Of a stretch of DNA of 33,537 nucleotides, positions 3,412-32,963 are shown piece after piece (position 1 is the stretch's first letter; the number at the start of each line of letters is the position of its first letter). This DNA comes from a virus. A model generated the notes under the pieces. That model saw only the letters and a list, made by a program, of their open reading frames with translations. It had not been told where the DNA came from and made no database searches. Position numbers and translations under genes: made by a program. The stretch is taken from positions 1 to 33,537 of IMG/VR virus record IMGVR_UViG_3300025646_000008. The stretch is one strand, 5' to 3'.

Positions 3412-4988
3412 TTGTATCTAATGATTTACCTCTTCCGCAAAATACATCTAACATTGCTAAGATGTATATTGCAAAGTATCAAGCCGCCAAAACATTAAGG
3501 GAAAACTTTATTCCTTTGTTTGAAGAGTGTTATGAATACGCTCTGCCGCAAAGAGAATCTTTTTATGCTGAGGCTATTGGTCAGAGGCGTGACGATAAGA
3601 TCTTTGATGAGACTGCTGTTGTTGGTGTTCAAGAGTTTGCTTCACGCTTGCAACAAGGTCTTGTTCCTAACTTTGCACGATGGGCTGACTTTACTTCTGG
3701 AAGTGAAGTACCACCAGAACAAAGAGATGCTGTTGACAATGACCTTGATGAAGTAACTGACTATGTGTTTGAGGTAATTCAAAACTCTAACTTCGGTCAG
3801 GAAATACATGAATCCTTTTTAGATTTAGCTGTTGGCACAGGTGTTCTTCATATATCAGAAGGCAATGCTATTAATCCTGTCAACTTCTCAGCTATTCCTT
3901 TGCCGCACGTTGTGCTGGATGTTGGCCCTGATGACCGCATCGACCACGTTTATCGTGAGCGTAAGGTTAGGGCAAATGAAATTAATATTCTTTATCCAAA
4001 AGCTATTATCTCAGACAAACTAAAAACAATGGCGCAAACCTCACCAAATAGCAAGTGTACTGTGTTGGAAGTTGTTTGCCGTGATTATTCAAAAAAGAAT
4101 GAAGAAGCGCATTTATTTTATGCTATTGAAATGCAGACTGGCGATGTGCTGGTACAAGAACAATACAGGGGCGTTGGTTCTAATCCTTATGTTCCTTTCC
4201 GTTGGTCTAAGTGTGCTGGTGAGATCTATGGGCGTGGCCCACTTATCAATGCTCTATCAGCAATTAAAACAACTAATCTTACCATTGAACTTATTCTTGA
4301 GAATGCACAGATGGCTATCTCTGGCATCTACCAAATGGAAGATGACGGCGTAGTTAATCCCGATACTATTAACTTAGTCCCTGGAACTGTCATTCCAAAA
4401 GCCCCTAATAGCCGTGGCCTAGAGCCAATTCGTGCGGCTGGTTCTTTTGATGTTGCAAATCTGGTGCTATCAGATATGCGCCTTAACATTAAAAGGGCTT
4501 TGTATAATGATATGCTTGGTAATCCTGACAGAACTCCAGCAACTGCAACAGAGGTTGCAGAACGTATGGCCGACTTGTCACGAAGGATTGGTAGTGCTTT
4601 TGGAAGACTCCAAGCTGAGTTGGTACAGCCTGTTCTTCAACGTGTAGTTTATATTCTCAAGAAGCAAGGGCGTATTGAATTGCCAACAATTAATGGCAGA
4701 GAAGTTAAAGTTAGATCAGTTTCCCCTCTTGCACAGGCTCAGGCGAATGAAGATATTACTTCGGTTGCGCGATTCCTTGAGCTTGTGCAAGGTAGATTTG
4801 GGCCAGAGATTACCAATCTTTTGATTAACTCTGAGGAAACTGCGGCTTACTTAGCTAAGAAGTTTGGTGTTCCAGACAAACTTATTCGTGATCTTGAAGA
4901 GCGACAGCAGATTGTTGCCGCCGCACAGCAATATGCTCAACAACAACAAATGATGCAACAGGGGATGATGCCTGATGAGCAAGCCTAA
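3408..4988 (+). CDS. Portal (head-tail connector) protein, T7 gp8-like
   Basis: This forms the dodecameric portal ring through which DNA enters and leaves the capsid and on which the tail assembles. The 526-aa length and the pattern near the N-terminus (LRENFIPLFEECYEYALPQR, then FDETAVVGVQEFASRLQQGL) match the podovirus head-to-tail connecting protein family. The region TPATATEVAERMADLSRRIG (about residues 368-387) is the typical portal core helix area. The C-terminus is Gln/Met-rich, common for portal tails. It is coupled to the preceding small gene by ATGA and lies directly before scaffold and capsid genes. Confidence 0.93.
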   Translation: MIVSNDLPLPQNTSNIAKMYIAKYQAAKTLRENFIPLFEECYEYALPQRESFYAEAIGQRRDDKIFDETAVVGVQEFASRLQQGLVPNFARWADFTSGSEVPPEQRDAVDNDLDEVTDYVFEVIQNSNFGQEIHESFLDLAVGTGVLHISEGNAINPVNFSAIPLPHVVLDVGPDDRIDHVYRERKVRANEINILYPKAIISDKLKTMAQTSPNSKCTVLEVVCRDYSKKNEEAHLFYAIEMQTGDVLVQEQYRGVGSNPYVPFRWSKCAGEIYGRGPLINALSAIKTTNLTIELILENAQMAISGIYQMEDDGVVNPDTINLVPGTVIPKAPNSRGLEPIRAAGSFDVANLVLSDMRLNIKRALYNDMLGNPDRTPATATEVAERMADLSRRIGSAFGRLQAELVQPVLQRVVYILKKQGRIELPTINGREVKVRSVSPLAQAQANEDITSVARFLELVQGRFGPEITNLLINSEETAAYLAKKFGVPDKLIRDLEERQQIVAAAQQYAQQQQMMQQGMMPDEQA

Positions 4989-5238
4989 TTTTATTAGCAT
5001 TGATGGCTTTACCAGAAATAAACAAGAAGACGACAAAATAAATCAAAACTTTGCAAGCTTGTTCTCTACACCAACAGGACAAGAGATCTTGCGTTATTTG
5101 CGTTCAGTAACTATAGAGGCAGTAAGTGGGGCTAACATTAGTGATGCAGAGTTGCGCCACTTAGAGGGGATGAGGTTTCTTGTTGCCCTTATTGAAAAAC
5201 GAATTGCATCAGGACATAAGGTAAAATCAAATGGATAA
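4975..5238 (+). CDS. Small head-region protein, 87 aa (Bbp19-like)
   Basis: It starts inside the last codons of the portal gene (14-bp overlap). The protein contains NQNFASLFSTPTGQEILRYL at about residues 23-42 and LRHLEGMRFLVALIEKRI near the C-terminus. This matches the pattern of a small phage family between portal and scaffold genes that I recall as Bbp19-like. It is predicted helical, with no membrane segment. The function is unknown; a head assembly accessory is inferred from location. Confidence 0.72.
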   Translation: MSKPNFISIDGFTRNKQEDDKINQNFASLFSTPTGQEILRYLRSVTIEAVSGANISDAELRHLEGMRFLVALIEKRIASGHKVKSNG

Positions 5239-24699: not shown

Positions 24700-25155
24700 A
24701 TGAATCTATCACCACACTTTACACTGCGTGAATTAACACGCAGTCAGACTGCTGAACGGCATGGTATCTCTAATAAGCCCTCAGAGACTCATATACAGGC
24801 GTTGAGAACAACGTGTACCATGATACTAGAGCCTATCAGAGAACGCTTTGGCGTGCCGTTTACGCCCTCTAGCGGCTATCGTACCAAAACATTGTGCAAA
24901 TTAATTGGTAGTAATGAGAATAGTCAGCATACAAAGGGGCAAGCAGTAGACTTTGAAGTCCCTGGAATTGATAACTTGACTGTTGTTAAATGGATTGACA
25001 AGAATTTAGATTTTGATCAGTTGATCCTTGAGTGTTATCGAGGCGGCAATACTGGCTGGATACATTGCAGTTACAGACCTGATGGAAATCGCAGGGATAT
25101 CTTTACTTACAATATCCACGATGGGTATACATTATTTAATCCCGATCTTGTGTAA
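24700..25155 (+). CDS. Endolysin, peptidase M15-type
   Basis: A peptidoglycan peptidase that would cleave cell-wall cross-bridges at lysis. Zinc-binding and catalytic motifs of the M15 family are clear: SGYR (residues 58-61), SQHTKGQAVDF (75-85, with H77 and D84) and WIHCSY (120-125, with H122). No signal peptide is present, fitting release through the holin encoded just upstream. An AGGAGC ribosome binding site precedes the ATG. The length of 151 aa is usual for single-domain phage M15 lysins. The last 20 bp overlap the end of the convergent minus-strand gene. Confidence 0.92.
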   Translation: MNLSPHFTLRELTRSQTAERHGISNKPSETHIQALRTTCTMILEPIRERFGVPFTPSSGYRTKTLCKLIGSNENSQHTKGQAVDFEVPGIDNLTVVKWIDKNLDFDQLILECYRGGNTGWIHCSYRPDGNRRDIFTYNIHDGYTLFNPDLV

Positions 25156-25441: not shown

Positions 25442-25840
25442 CTAGAAAGGTACGCTATCTTCGACTGGCTGTCCAGAAACCTGTTGTTGACTTTGCGGCA
25501 CATTGCTTTCTGCTTGTGGTGCATCTTGCTTTACCGACACTTGATAAGATAGGTATGGTTTACCTTCGTTATCGCCACGCCAAGCTGACATTCTTAGATC
25601 TGAATTGTCAATCATGCCAGTATAGTCTGGCTGGGCTGGCTTATCTTTGCGATCATTCTCAAACAAGATGCCAACTTTCTGATACATTTCTATCTTTTTT
25701 TTGCCATCTTTTGTTGAGCCAGAAACAAGAACAACATTGCGGTCTGTTCCATGATAGTTAATTTTGCCTGACAAGATTAACTTCTGGTCATCGAATGGGG
25801 GGAAAGCCGCCCCCCTGTTTGTGTTATCGTATTCGCTCAT
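25442..25840 (-). CDS. Single-stranded DNA-binding-like protein
   Basis: ATG 25840 overlaps the stop of the upstream gene (TAATG) with AGGTGG six bases upstream; another ATG two codons earlier has poor spacing. The 132-aa protein contains beta-rich segments (KLILSGKINYHGTDRNVVLV, IEMYQKVGILFEND, LRMSAWRGDNEGKPYLSYQV), a Gln/Pro/Ser-rich linker and an acidic tail ending DSVPF. That tail closely resembles the C-terminal tip of bacterial SSB (DDDIPF), which recruits partner proteins. Adjacent exonuclease and annealing genes support an ssDNA role. The OB-fold itself is inferred. Confidence 0.72.
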   Translation of the reverse strand: MSEYDNTNRGAAFPPFDDQKLILSGKINYHGTDRNVVLVSGSTKDGKKKIEMYQKVGILFENDRKDKPAQPDYTGMIDNSDLRMSAWRGDNEGKPYLSYQVSVKQDAPQAESNVPQSQQQVSGQPVEDSVPF

Positions 25841-26292
25841 TACCATCCACCTTTCTGATTTGGGTTAGAGTCTGCGGCATATTTGTTGCCATCCATTTCA
25901 CCAAGGAATACATCGGCATTGAATCCAAGGTGAGATAGTGCTTTGGTTAGGCCATCAGTGATAGCCATCTTTGGTGCGTCTTCTGCCATGCGTCCTTTGG
26001 CTGAGTCAAAGAACTTACGACAACCTGAGAATGGGCCGAATATATTTTCTGGTTTGCCAGTCCAGATAGATACATCAGCAACAACAGCAGTATCGCCGTT
26101 AGATAGATTGATGAATCTTGTATCGTTAATCCAGCCCCAGCCCTGACCAACAGGTCCGAACTGTTCTGTGGCGCAACGCACCTGATACTGTGGATCAATA
26201 GCTGTAAAGCTACGCTGTCCAAAGGATACTTTCTTGAGGAACTTAGGATCTGATTTGGATACTGTATTCCATAGTTTAAGATTGTCTGACAT
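25840..26292 (-). CDS. Single-strand annealing protein (Rad52/Sak-like)
   Basis: A 150-aa protein with FTAIDPQYQVRCATEQFGPV and GQGWGW in the N-terminal half and EDAPKMAITDGLTKALSHLG (residues 104-123) near the C-terminus. The last motif resembles the conserved helix of Rad52-type annealing proteins (TDALKxALxxLG). Such proteins coat ssDNA and anneal complementary strands during phage recombination. It lies 3 bp after the exonuclease gene and directly before the SSB-like gene. An AGGAG site precedes the start. The ERF or another annealing family is an alternative. Confidence 0.68.
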   Translation of the reverse strand: MSDNLKLWNTVSKSDPKFLKKVSFGQRSFTAIDPQYQVRCATEQFGPVGQGWGWINDTRFINLSNGDTAVVADVSIWTGKPENIFGPFSGCRKFFDSAKGRMAEDAPKMAITDGLTKALSHLGFNADVFLGEMDGNKYAADSNPNQKGGW

Positions 26293-31079: not shown

Positions 31080-31283
31080 CTACCATCTGTAAGGAACAGT
31101 ATTTTGAATTAGTTTATCCATCTCATCGAGCATCTTCCGCATTCTTTGCGGAAGATTTCTCTTTGATCCTGCTGTTGGATCATCAACCATATCTTCAAGC
31201 ATCTCTCTGAACGCTGTATCTTTTCCTATGTATAGTTGAGCAATCTTAATTGCTTTTATGTATTTTTCACTTGAATTCTGCAT
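31080..31283 (-). CDS. Hypothetical protein, 67 aa
   Basis: ATG 31283 is chosen because GGAGGT lies four bases upstream; an in-frame ATG six codons earlier lacks spacing. The product is charged and helical (MQNSSEKYIKAIKIAQLYIG, then FREMLEDMVDDPTAG, then LPQRMRKMLDEMDKLIQ). No domain is recognised. It lies between a GC-rich hairpin (upstream) and the promoter of the 44-aa gene (downstream), so it may be a separate early unit. Confidence 0.68.
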   Translation of the reverse strand: MQNSSEKYIKAIKIAQLYIGKDTAFREMLEDMVDDPTAGSKRNLPQRMRKMLDEMDKLIQNTVPYRW

Positions 31284-31308
31284 TGTTACCTCCATTGGCA
31301 AAAGCTTT

Positions 31309-31328
31309 GAGGCGGCTTGCGCCGCCTC
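31309..31328 (-). terminator. Terminator-like GC hairpin
   Basis: A perfect 8-bp stem GAGGCGGC/GCCGCCTC (31309-31316 with 31321-31328) with a 4-nt loop lies just after the stop of the 139-aa gene (minus strand). The downstream minus-strand sequence CAAAGCTTTTG is only weakly U-rich, so termination may be partial. Confidence 0.55.
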
Positions 31329-31339
31329 TTCGCTTGTGG

Positions 31340-31759
31340 TTAAGACGCTAGGATTGCACTGGCGGCTTCGAGGACGCCTTGTGCTTGCTTGGATCGGAAG
31401 GACTTAGGGGTCGCTTTCCAATCTTCTCCAGTGATCTGCTTGTGGACTTCCAGATCTGACTGATGCCGAATCTCTAATTCTTCCAACTCATCTTGCATTG
31501 AGTGGTAGATGTCGACTCGCTTTGCAAGCTTGGTGTCGACAATCTCAGTGCCAGAAGCTTCATGCAATTCAGCAATCTCAGCCTTTAGATTAGACATCTG
31601 CTCAAGCTTCCAGTTCAGTGAGTTCTGGCTGGTGTAGCAAGCATCACGAGCAATCTGATTACGAAGATAGCTCATGTTATCACCTTTATGAAAGTTAACT
31701 GCGGTGATCTTGATTTTGGCGAGTTCAGTTACTCTAGACGTAGTTAAGTTCTTAGACAT
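31340..31759 (-). CDS. Coiled-coil-like early protein, 139 aa
   Basis: ATG 31759 is chosen because AAAGGAA lies just upstream; the frame is open further upstream into the structured intergenic region, but that extension (rich in Pro, Arg and Trp) is not convincing. The protein is helical and charged: WKLEQMSNLKAEIAELHEAS, then YHSMQDELEELEIRHQSDLE, then GEDWKATPKSFRSKQAQGVL. No enzyme motif is visible. It is the first gene of the minus arm, next to the structured intergenic region, and has its own terminator-like hairpin, so it is probably transcribed separately and early. Confidence 0.75.
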   Translation of the reverse strand: MSKNLTTSRVTELAKIKITAVNFHKGDNMSYLRNQIARDACYTSQNSLNWKLEQMSNLKAEIAELHEASGTEIVDTKLAKRVDIYHSMQDELEELEIRHQSDLEVHKQITGEDWKATPKSFRSKQAQGVLEAASAILAS

Positions 31760-31784
31760 TTTAGGTTCCTTTTCTAGGTTAAGA

Positions 31785-31798
31785 CGGGACCATTCCCG
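31785..31798. other. Small hairpin beside structured region
   Basis: CGGGA/TCCCG (31785-31789 with 31794-31798) with loop CCAT lies between the 139-aa gene start and the structured region. On the minus strand it is followed by TCTTAA, so it could end a minus-strand RNA or structure the 5' leader of the early gene. Confidence 0.4.
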
Positions 31799-31819
31799 AC
31801 AGCCTCGGCAGGACACAAA

Positions 31820-32445
31820 GATTTGGTTAGTGGGGCGGGCTTCGGTGGGCTTTGGCTTCTCGCCCCAGTCGCCTCGGCGGAGCCGTGGATATGCGACTGG
31901 ACTTGGCGAGGTCCAAAGGGCCTGCCCCACTAAGCGAAATCTAGGTCAACTCGCAAGGCGGTTGACGGTTGTGTCAAGCCAAAGGATGGCGAGGAATGTC
32001 CTGTATTAACCGCCAAGAAAAGGGTTCTGAAATGTTTAAGGACTTTACGCAGTCTTGAGTAACTGATCTCGACAAAATCTAGATTGCCGCCCTTTTAGTT
32101 GGTCTTTTAGAAAGGTGATAGCATGAGATAGCTTCGACAGATCAGATTGTGAGGTGCTTGATGCACCAGACTGAATGAGATGGACTCAGCTTGTGCAATG
32201 TCGAAGCTAAAGGATTAGTTGCCATTGCATGACGCTTATGGTGCTGAACATTGGCGATGCCAATCTTCAAACGATCGGCCTTCTGCCGTTCAAGGTAAGT
32301 GATTGGAAGCTTTAGAATGCAGGGATCAGGCCGATCTGTAAGGACGCAAGCTGGCACTTGCGAAGTTGGAAACGACCACTAAGTCGTTTCGCTTCAAGCC
32401 ACAAGGTGGCCTTGAAGTCGCAAGTGTAAGGCTTGCGCCTTTACC
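31820..32445. ncRNA. Putative large structured noncoding RNA
   Basis: About 630 bases without a convincing gene, in the divergent gap between early and late arms, are densely packed with nested inverted repeats. 31827-31840 pairs with 31920-31933 (14 bp), enclosing helices 31850-31855/31913-31918, 31859-31864/31905-31910, 31866-31872/31893-31899 and 31875-31878/31882-31885. Further stems are 31945-31950/31961-31966, 31957-31965/32006-32014 (alternative), 32129-32139/32199-32209 (11 bp), 32153-32157/32163-32167, 32250-32255/32259-32264 and 32273-32280/32329-32336. Last is a three-way-junction-like fold at 32338-32444. Size and ornate folding recall GOLLD/ROOL phage RNAs; no class was matched. 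Strand and exact ends are unknown. An origin or packaging site is the main alternative. Confidence 0.55.
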
Positions 32446-32467
32446 ATAAGCTAAGAGGTGGTGCAAG

Positions 32468-32911
32468 TTGCCGCAAAGTGAGTTGACAAAGGTTTTCAAT
32501 CGTGCCAAGAAAGGGGGGAATCACAAGGGGGGTTCAAAAGTGTCTAGAGAATTAGTCCTTACAGATAAACAAACAAAGCTAGTGGATACGCTTGTATCAA
32601 CTGGATGTAGTATCAGAGAAGCGGCTGAGTCGGCTGGTTATGCGGCTGGCGAATCAGGAAGAGTAAGTGCTTGCAAGGCTTTACGTCAGCCTCATGTTCA
32701 GCAGTATATGATGCAGAGTGTGAATGAGGCGTTAGGACTTAACGCTACCGTTGCTGCAAGCAAACTGCTTAGCTTAGCCCGAGGGGCTAAGTCAGAGTAT
32801 GTCCAGCTGGAAGCCAGCAAGGACATACTCGATCGGGCTGGCTTTAAGCCGCCCGACAAGCAGTTGCACCTACACGCTGGCGAAATCAAGGTGAGTATAG
32901 ACCTGTCGTAG
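32468..32911 (+). CDS. terS: Terminase small subunit
   Basis: This recognises phage DNA and regulates the packaging motor. The 147-aa protein has a basic N-terminus (FNRAKKGGNHKGGSKVSREL), an HTH region (LVSTGCSIREAAESAGYAAG) and a helical oligomerisation part (YMMQSVNEALGLNATVAASK, then YVQLEASKDILDRAGFKPPD), as in many small terminases. The start is TTG 32468 with AGAGGTGG six bases upstream; there is no closer ATG in frame. It opens the late plus-strand arm, just beyond the structured region. It is separated from the large subunit by about nine tiny genes when the circle is closed. Confidence 0.82.
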   Translation: MPQSELTKVFNRAKKGGNHKGGSKVSRELVLTDKQTKLVDTLVSTGCSIREAAESAGYAAGESGRVSACKALRQPHVQQYMMQSVNEALGLNATVAASKLLSLARGAKSEYVQLEASKDILDRAGFKPPDKQLHLHAGEIKVSIDLS

Positions 32912-32963
32912 AGGGGGTAGGGGGGAAAAACTGCGGTGTGTATATGTGACAGGGACTACCACA

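Follow-up and report, generated by a model that had tools for sequence, protein, structure and literature searches.

What lies at the divergent junction of this marine phage genome, where some 700 bp appear to carry no gene? The window, the whole 33,537-nt IMG/VR virus record analyzed here, is a complete phage genome with a 127-bp end repeat, and its portal, capsid, and terminase genes are related to those of podovirus-type phages. The nearest cultured relative is the Pelagibacter phage EXVC031P Hodr, with identities of 64% for TerL, 61% for the portal protein, and 55% for TerS. Leftward genes begin at position 31759 and rightward genes at the terminase small subunit gene (terS, 32540..32911 on the + strand, with a probable GTG start at 32540 and a listed TTG start at 32468), whereas the two gene blocks meet tail to tail with an overlap at 25136-25155. 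An earlier note had described positions 31760-32467 as a gene-free, G+C-rich region that resembles a large ornate noncoding RNA such as GOLLD or ROOL. The absence of genes was confirmed, as we found no credible gene between the ATG at 31759 and terS (31760-32539), and a tRNA/tmRNA search found neither, as the note had also claimed. The G+C content is raised compared with the left side (0.46-0.50 against 0.36-0.42) but not with the right side, where it is 0.49-0.50 as well.

The gap is only the right half of a larger palindrome. Positions 31293-32480 match their own reverse complement (nhmmer E = 3e-66; blastn 69% over 1236 columns), indicating complementarity of the two arms beyond chance. The imperfect palindrome of about 1.19 kb sits at the junction of the leftward and rightward gene blocks and extends beyond 31760-32467; structure had been correctly suspected there, but within too narrow bounds. 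A genome-wide check revealed it as the sole long inverted repeat of the phage, and none was found in phage T7 or in the examined part of phage MEP301. In the palindrome register of the window, the 547 aligned column pairs consist of 434 Watson-Crick, 40 G.T, 5 A.C, and 68 other pairs. The minimum free energy fold of the + strand RNA is a single rod with 475 pairs at -653 kcal/mol, whereas the - strand reaches only -506 kcal/mol. RNAalifold recovers the same single rod with no register supplied. The whole fold-back element (31293..32490 on the + strand, 1174-1200 nt depending on the foot placement) comprises a left arm (31293..31780), which would be the 5' arm of a + strand RNA and antisense to the leftward gene, a G+C-rich tip (31780..32025), and a right arm (31970..32480). 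Next to the right foot resides a conserved element (32483..32532, + strand) composed of TTGACA, a spacing of about 18 nt, a -10-like sequence, and GGGGGG-ATCACAA-GGGGGG, which probably represents the rightward promoter and leader. Hodr carries a near-consensus TTGACA-17-TATACT promoter ahead of terS.

The two arms differ in their coding capacity. The left arm contains a leftward early gene of 139 codons (31340..31759, - strand, ATG at 31759), which is under purifying selection with dN/dS values of 0.18 and 0.17 and is, therefore, coding. The predicted protein is all-helical (AF2 pLDDT 84) and has no Pfam or PHROG family. In fold searches, the PDB hits were all generic helical hairpins, one of them an elongated ROP variant (E 0.84), and the BFVD hits were all unnamed phage proteins. 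Neither blastn of the region against cultured phages nor a search of phages with the relative of the left protein from locus L066 gave a match. Just past the end of this gene, the left foot contains a - strand hairpin, GAGGCGGC-TTGC-GCCGCCTC (31309..31328), which is terminator-like with a following T run in several relatives but is without a good T run here. The right arm repeats the leftward gene in inverted, noncoding form, with stops in all frames and a longest open stretch of 37 codons.

The right half also folds locally. Its strong structure was borne out in comparison with dinucleotide shuffles, with z = -9.8 on the + strand (761-nt fold) and z = -7.7 on the - strand, and the right arm alone gives z = -6.1 on the + strand and z = -7.4 on the - strand. 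The hairpins noticed previously belong to a local multi-branched fold (32224..32440, + strand) that is above chance on both strands but shows little covariation. Among the local right-arm hairpins, the 11 double changes, of which only 4 are canonical, hardly exceed the expected 8.7, and a 3' domain based on the related locus L001 gave 13 double changes against 5.6 expected, 10 of them canonical. The nested hairpins are stronger than chance, but the + strand RNA folds as one rod and not as separate ornate domains. The Rfam covariance models, including those of GOLLD, ROOL, OLE, and phi29 pRNA, produced no match at the gathering threshold over the whole window, and only chance-level hits at the relaxed threshold (E up to 5) within 31200-32600.

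The arms have changed together during evolution. Within each of the five genomes first compared, the arm identity is 67-72%; between distant genomes, the right arms cannot be aligned with each other, although every right arm matches the left arm of its own genome. Between the window and L001, 68 pairs, defined from the window alone, have changed on both sides against 24.6 expected if the arms were independent, and 59 of them are canonical. When the tip is left out, 40 double changes remain, and the 33 canonical ones are scattered along the arm; 16 of these 33 fall on third positions of codons in the left gene. Over 16 locus pairs, some of which come from the same lineage and are not independent, there are 217 double changes against 75 expected, of which 161 still pair. 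The RNAalifold rod contains 65 pairs that changed on both sides and were kept. The compensatory changes in related genomes that a structured RNA under selection should display, and which the earlier note had proposed to look for, are thus present beyond expectation. The same excess of double changes led us to reject the right arm as a plain decaying pseudogene. Arm-to-arm conversion could add to this signal. By a runs test (45 seen, 51.6 expected, sd 4.8), most of the double changes lie scattered, and non-Watson-Crick sites are unclustered in most large cases. L094 and L098 contain a 45-bp perfect run, and the rod tip of L001 has been exchanged as a cassette, on both sides together, relative to the window and L084 (A2 columns 515-700). 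The tip of L098 differs from that of its close relatives. We also considered avoidance of long helices as an escape from RNase III, as hinted by short Watson-Crick runs; this idea was abandoned, since counting G.U pairs extends the helices of several genomes to 20-40 pairs.

How widespread is this arrangement? We compared 84 loci, consisting of the window and relatives in which the conserved element precedes terS and sufficient flanking sequence is available; a hand-written terS-like probe was used only to fetch more loci. The terS search returned more than 600 stretches among the matches listed, indicating a large marine phage clade. A palindrome is found at the same site in 72 of the 84 loci (44 non-redundant), with its foot usually 4-85 nt from the TTGACA. 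A large class of about 1.05-1.3 kb spans a whole gene of the window's family, and a small class of mostly about 230-650 bp covers, in most loci, some 60-135 nt from the beginning of the gene and 100-150 nt of leader. Of the 44 non-redundant palindromes, 10 measure about 1.1-1.3 kb and most of the others 230-520 bp. The right arm always copies whichever gene adjoins, and the left genes across the relatives belong to several families, three of which are distantly related according to profile comparison, while the others have no detectable relation. In L068 (2131-3314) and L070 (1509-2692), the palindrome enters the terS coding region, so that the mirror includes the start of this gene.

The cultured SAR11 phage Hodr (L083, OQ414635.1, whose locus tags are named after another phage, Baldr) has a young-looking 694-bp palindrome at the same place (4372-5065), in which 266 of 298 pairs (89%) are Watson-Crick. 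The 12 other loci have no blastn-detectable palindrome. Several of them still fold into large hairpins, better on the + strand and with more G.U pairs, which is a weak point because the + strand of this genome region folds better generally. In eight loci (L002, L038, L062, L033, L034, L036, L043, and L007), the contig ends less than about 220 nt upstream of terS, in or beside the palindrome, which may reflect an interruption of assembly at the hairpin or the end of a genome. HTVC010P (L106) has a weak AT-rich palindrome at the end of its record (34595-34892), beside the outermost leftward gene and in a comparable place; we did not count it due to its AT-richness and its better folding on the other strand.

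The mismatches distinguish between the two strands. With the strand assigned by synteny and not by the mismatches themselves, the + strand contains 732 G.T against 165 A.C in the 44 non-redundant loci, and G.T prevails in 40 of the 43 informative loci, with 3 showing the opposite. Twelve further loci gave 120 G.T against 41 A.C (9 loci to 1). A part of the G.T excess follows base composition: the G.T:A.C ratio of the large class is 7.3, compared with 3.8 predicted from the GG:CC and TT:AA mismatches, and permutation within mismatch columns left the excess significant in most, but not all, large cases. We therefore do not use the ratio as stand-alone evidence but together with a context test, which is independent of overall composition. 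The G.T:A.C count is 214:17 for mismatches isolated between Watson-Crick pairs and 410:122 for all others (p = 7e-8); the twelve further loci by themselves show the same trend without reaching significance. The mutation spectrum of the flanks would favor A.C, opposite to the observation. Little or no clear asymmetry is seen in Hodr, L086, L087, and L090, which may carry younger copies. Taken together, the asymmetry supports selection acting on the pairing of the + strand, most simply as an RNA.

Our best reading, which we hold tentatively, is that the locus encodes a fold-back RNA selected for its pairing, which would neutralize antisense RNA over the early gene. An inverted duplication would have copied the first leftward gene, together with its leader, to the right side of the original, and this copy would have lost its coding ability while staying complementary to the gene. 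Transcription of the + strand, which we infer, would run through the antisense left arm, the tip, and the right arm, and the transcript would snap into one rod, in which the antisense left arm is sequestered intramolecularly by the right arm. Antisense RNA originating from rightward transcription could then not silence the early gene, leaving the early mRNA protected. Late rightward read-through past the overlap at 25136-25155 could supply such antisense RNA; the tail-to-tail arrangement makes this plausible. A few terminator-like sites are present on the + strand between the overlap and the rod, at chance frequency overall. Antisense neutralization would predict that the sequence follows whatever gene is present, that short forms cover just the gene start and leader, that the mirror lies downstream in the + direction, and that + strand pairing is kept while + strand G.U is tolerated. 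Late mRNA might begin at the promoter-like element of the right foot and thus exclude the rod. We count against an RNA reading that no + strand promoter was recognized left of the palindrome foot, nor any conserved there, together with the palindrome-less relatives and the loci without asymmetry.

The rather unlikely rival that deserves the most attention is a DNA-level palindrome without RNA function, created by fold-back (template-switch) replication at the junction, possibly a genome end or replication start, with the arms homogenized by recombination. It would readily explain why the right arm always mirrors the adjoining gene, why the Hodr copy looks young and has no G.T excess, and why a perfect 45-bp run in L094 and L098 or a tip swapped on both sides in L001 can arise; the local inverted repeats of the right arm are equally strong on the - strand, and the phage encodes YqaJ/RecE-like exonuclease and annealing-type genes. 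However, it predicts neither the one-stranded G.T excess nor the enrichment of this excess within helices, and the mostly scattered double changes, with non-Watson-Crick sites unclustered in most large cases, argue against homogenization. Repeated fold-back duplication with conversion accounts for how the mirror arose and perhaps for the Hodr copy, but not for the asymmetry. The strand bias, the preservation of structure while sequence is not kept, and the vicinity of terS would also suit a + strand rod acting in trans through its double-strandedness, either as a decoy for RNase III or a dsRNA-binding protein or as a structural or packaging RNA. We regard such a function as unlikely: lengths from about 230 to 1,300 nt are unlike a machine part, a trans-acting rod has no need to copy the neighboring gene, and phi29 pRNA and the other Rfam families gave no match.

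G.T wobbles are tolerated in DNA, too, and a + strand single-stranded DNA hairpin might serve as a replication start or protected end, with the two equal G runs beside the foot as a packaging or cutting site. This appears improbable, as neither function needs a 1.2-kb rod containing a gene; to our knowledge, there is no such case in tailed phages. We consider least credible of all an ornate multi-domain RNA, GOLLD- or ROOL-like, formed by the right half alone. That half folds well by itself (z = -9.8 for the 761-nt + strand fold, z = -6.1 for the right arm), but it has no Rfam match, its local pairs lack overall covariation, for which we rejected it as an independent RNA, and distant right arms do not align. 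The proposed likeness to GOLLD and ROOL finds no support, as the element is an unbranched rod, half of which lies outside the region first described and is antisense to a real gene. The idea of a large structured RNA nevertheless survives in the paired sites that change together among relatives and in the G.U pairing of the + strand.

That the two halves have continued to match each other over evolution suggests a large structured RNA of a kind not described before. Cis-encoded antisense RNAs such as ColE1 RNA I/II and lambda OOP are complementary to a neighboring transcript. The rod would share this property, but its complement, an inverted gene copy, sits in the same + strand molecule. As a helical hairpin, the 139-residue protein bears a loose resemblance to ROP, but this match is weak and generic. 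GOLLD, ROOL, and OLE are likewise large and highly structured, occur in phages or bacteria, and have a noncoding structured strand, but they possess conserved multi-domain folds recognized by sequence models (PMC12286853). Here, the minimum free energy and RNAalifold structures are one rod, whose sequence follows the neighboring gene and has no Rfam match. Obelisks are viroid-like rods of about 1-1.7 kb, mostly self-paired and with a small protein gene in one arm (PMC11922315; PMC13096302). Our element resembles obelisks and hepatitis delta virus in this shape only, as it is a linear rod, favored by just one strand and encoded at a fixed locus of DNA phage genomes, not a circular RNA without a DNA copy, and has short forms without the whole gene. 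No ribozyme family was detected in Rfam at the relaxed threshold. Some obelisks also have no known ribozymes. Judged by Pfam alone, the 139-residue protein belongs to no Oblin-type family. Inverted duplications centered on palindromes, known as unstable rearrangements (PMC3315005), are the likely mechanism of birth of the mirror; unlike them, the phage mirror has been kept across a clade with compensatory change.

No published report was found in the literature searched, which covers few subscription journals. We see an evenly balanced chance that these elements, which may be called mirror-gene rods, represent a new RNA class, consisting of noncoding inverted early-gene copies kept complementary across a large marine phage clade by selection on RNA pairing, whatever the gene sequence. 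If true, the noncoding element would be conserved only in its complementarity to a neighboring gene and would rank with the longest RNA fold-backs maintained in any bacterium or phage. It has probably been missed, being invisible to sequence-based RNA searches and resembling an empty gap. It would also offer a direct test of how phages stop antisense transcription from silencing early genes. Even if it acted only as DNA, the locus would be a site where inverted gene copies repeatedly arise and persist.

Most relatives keep the two G runs of the right-foot element, and 66 of 70 distinct examples have runs of equal length (6/6, 7/7, or 8/8). The equal lengths suggest that the two runs work together, for instance as a packaging site or as paired signals in the leader. 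In the window, GGGGGG also faces CCCCCC at 25797-25815, inside the open reading frame at 25442-25846; apart from the terS element and an isolated run at 32920, the genome has no other facing G/C runs of at least six.
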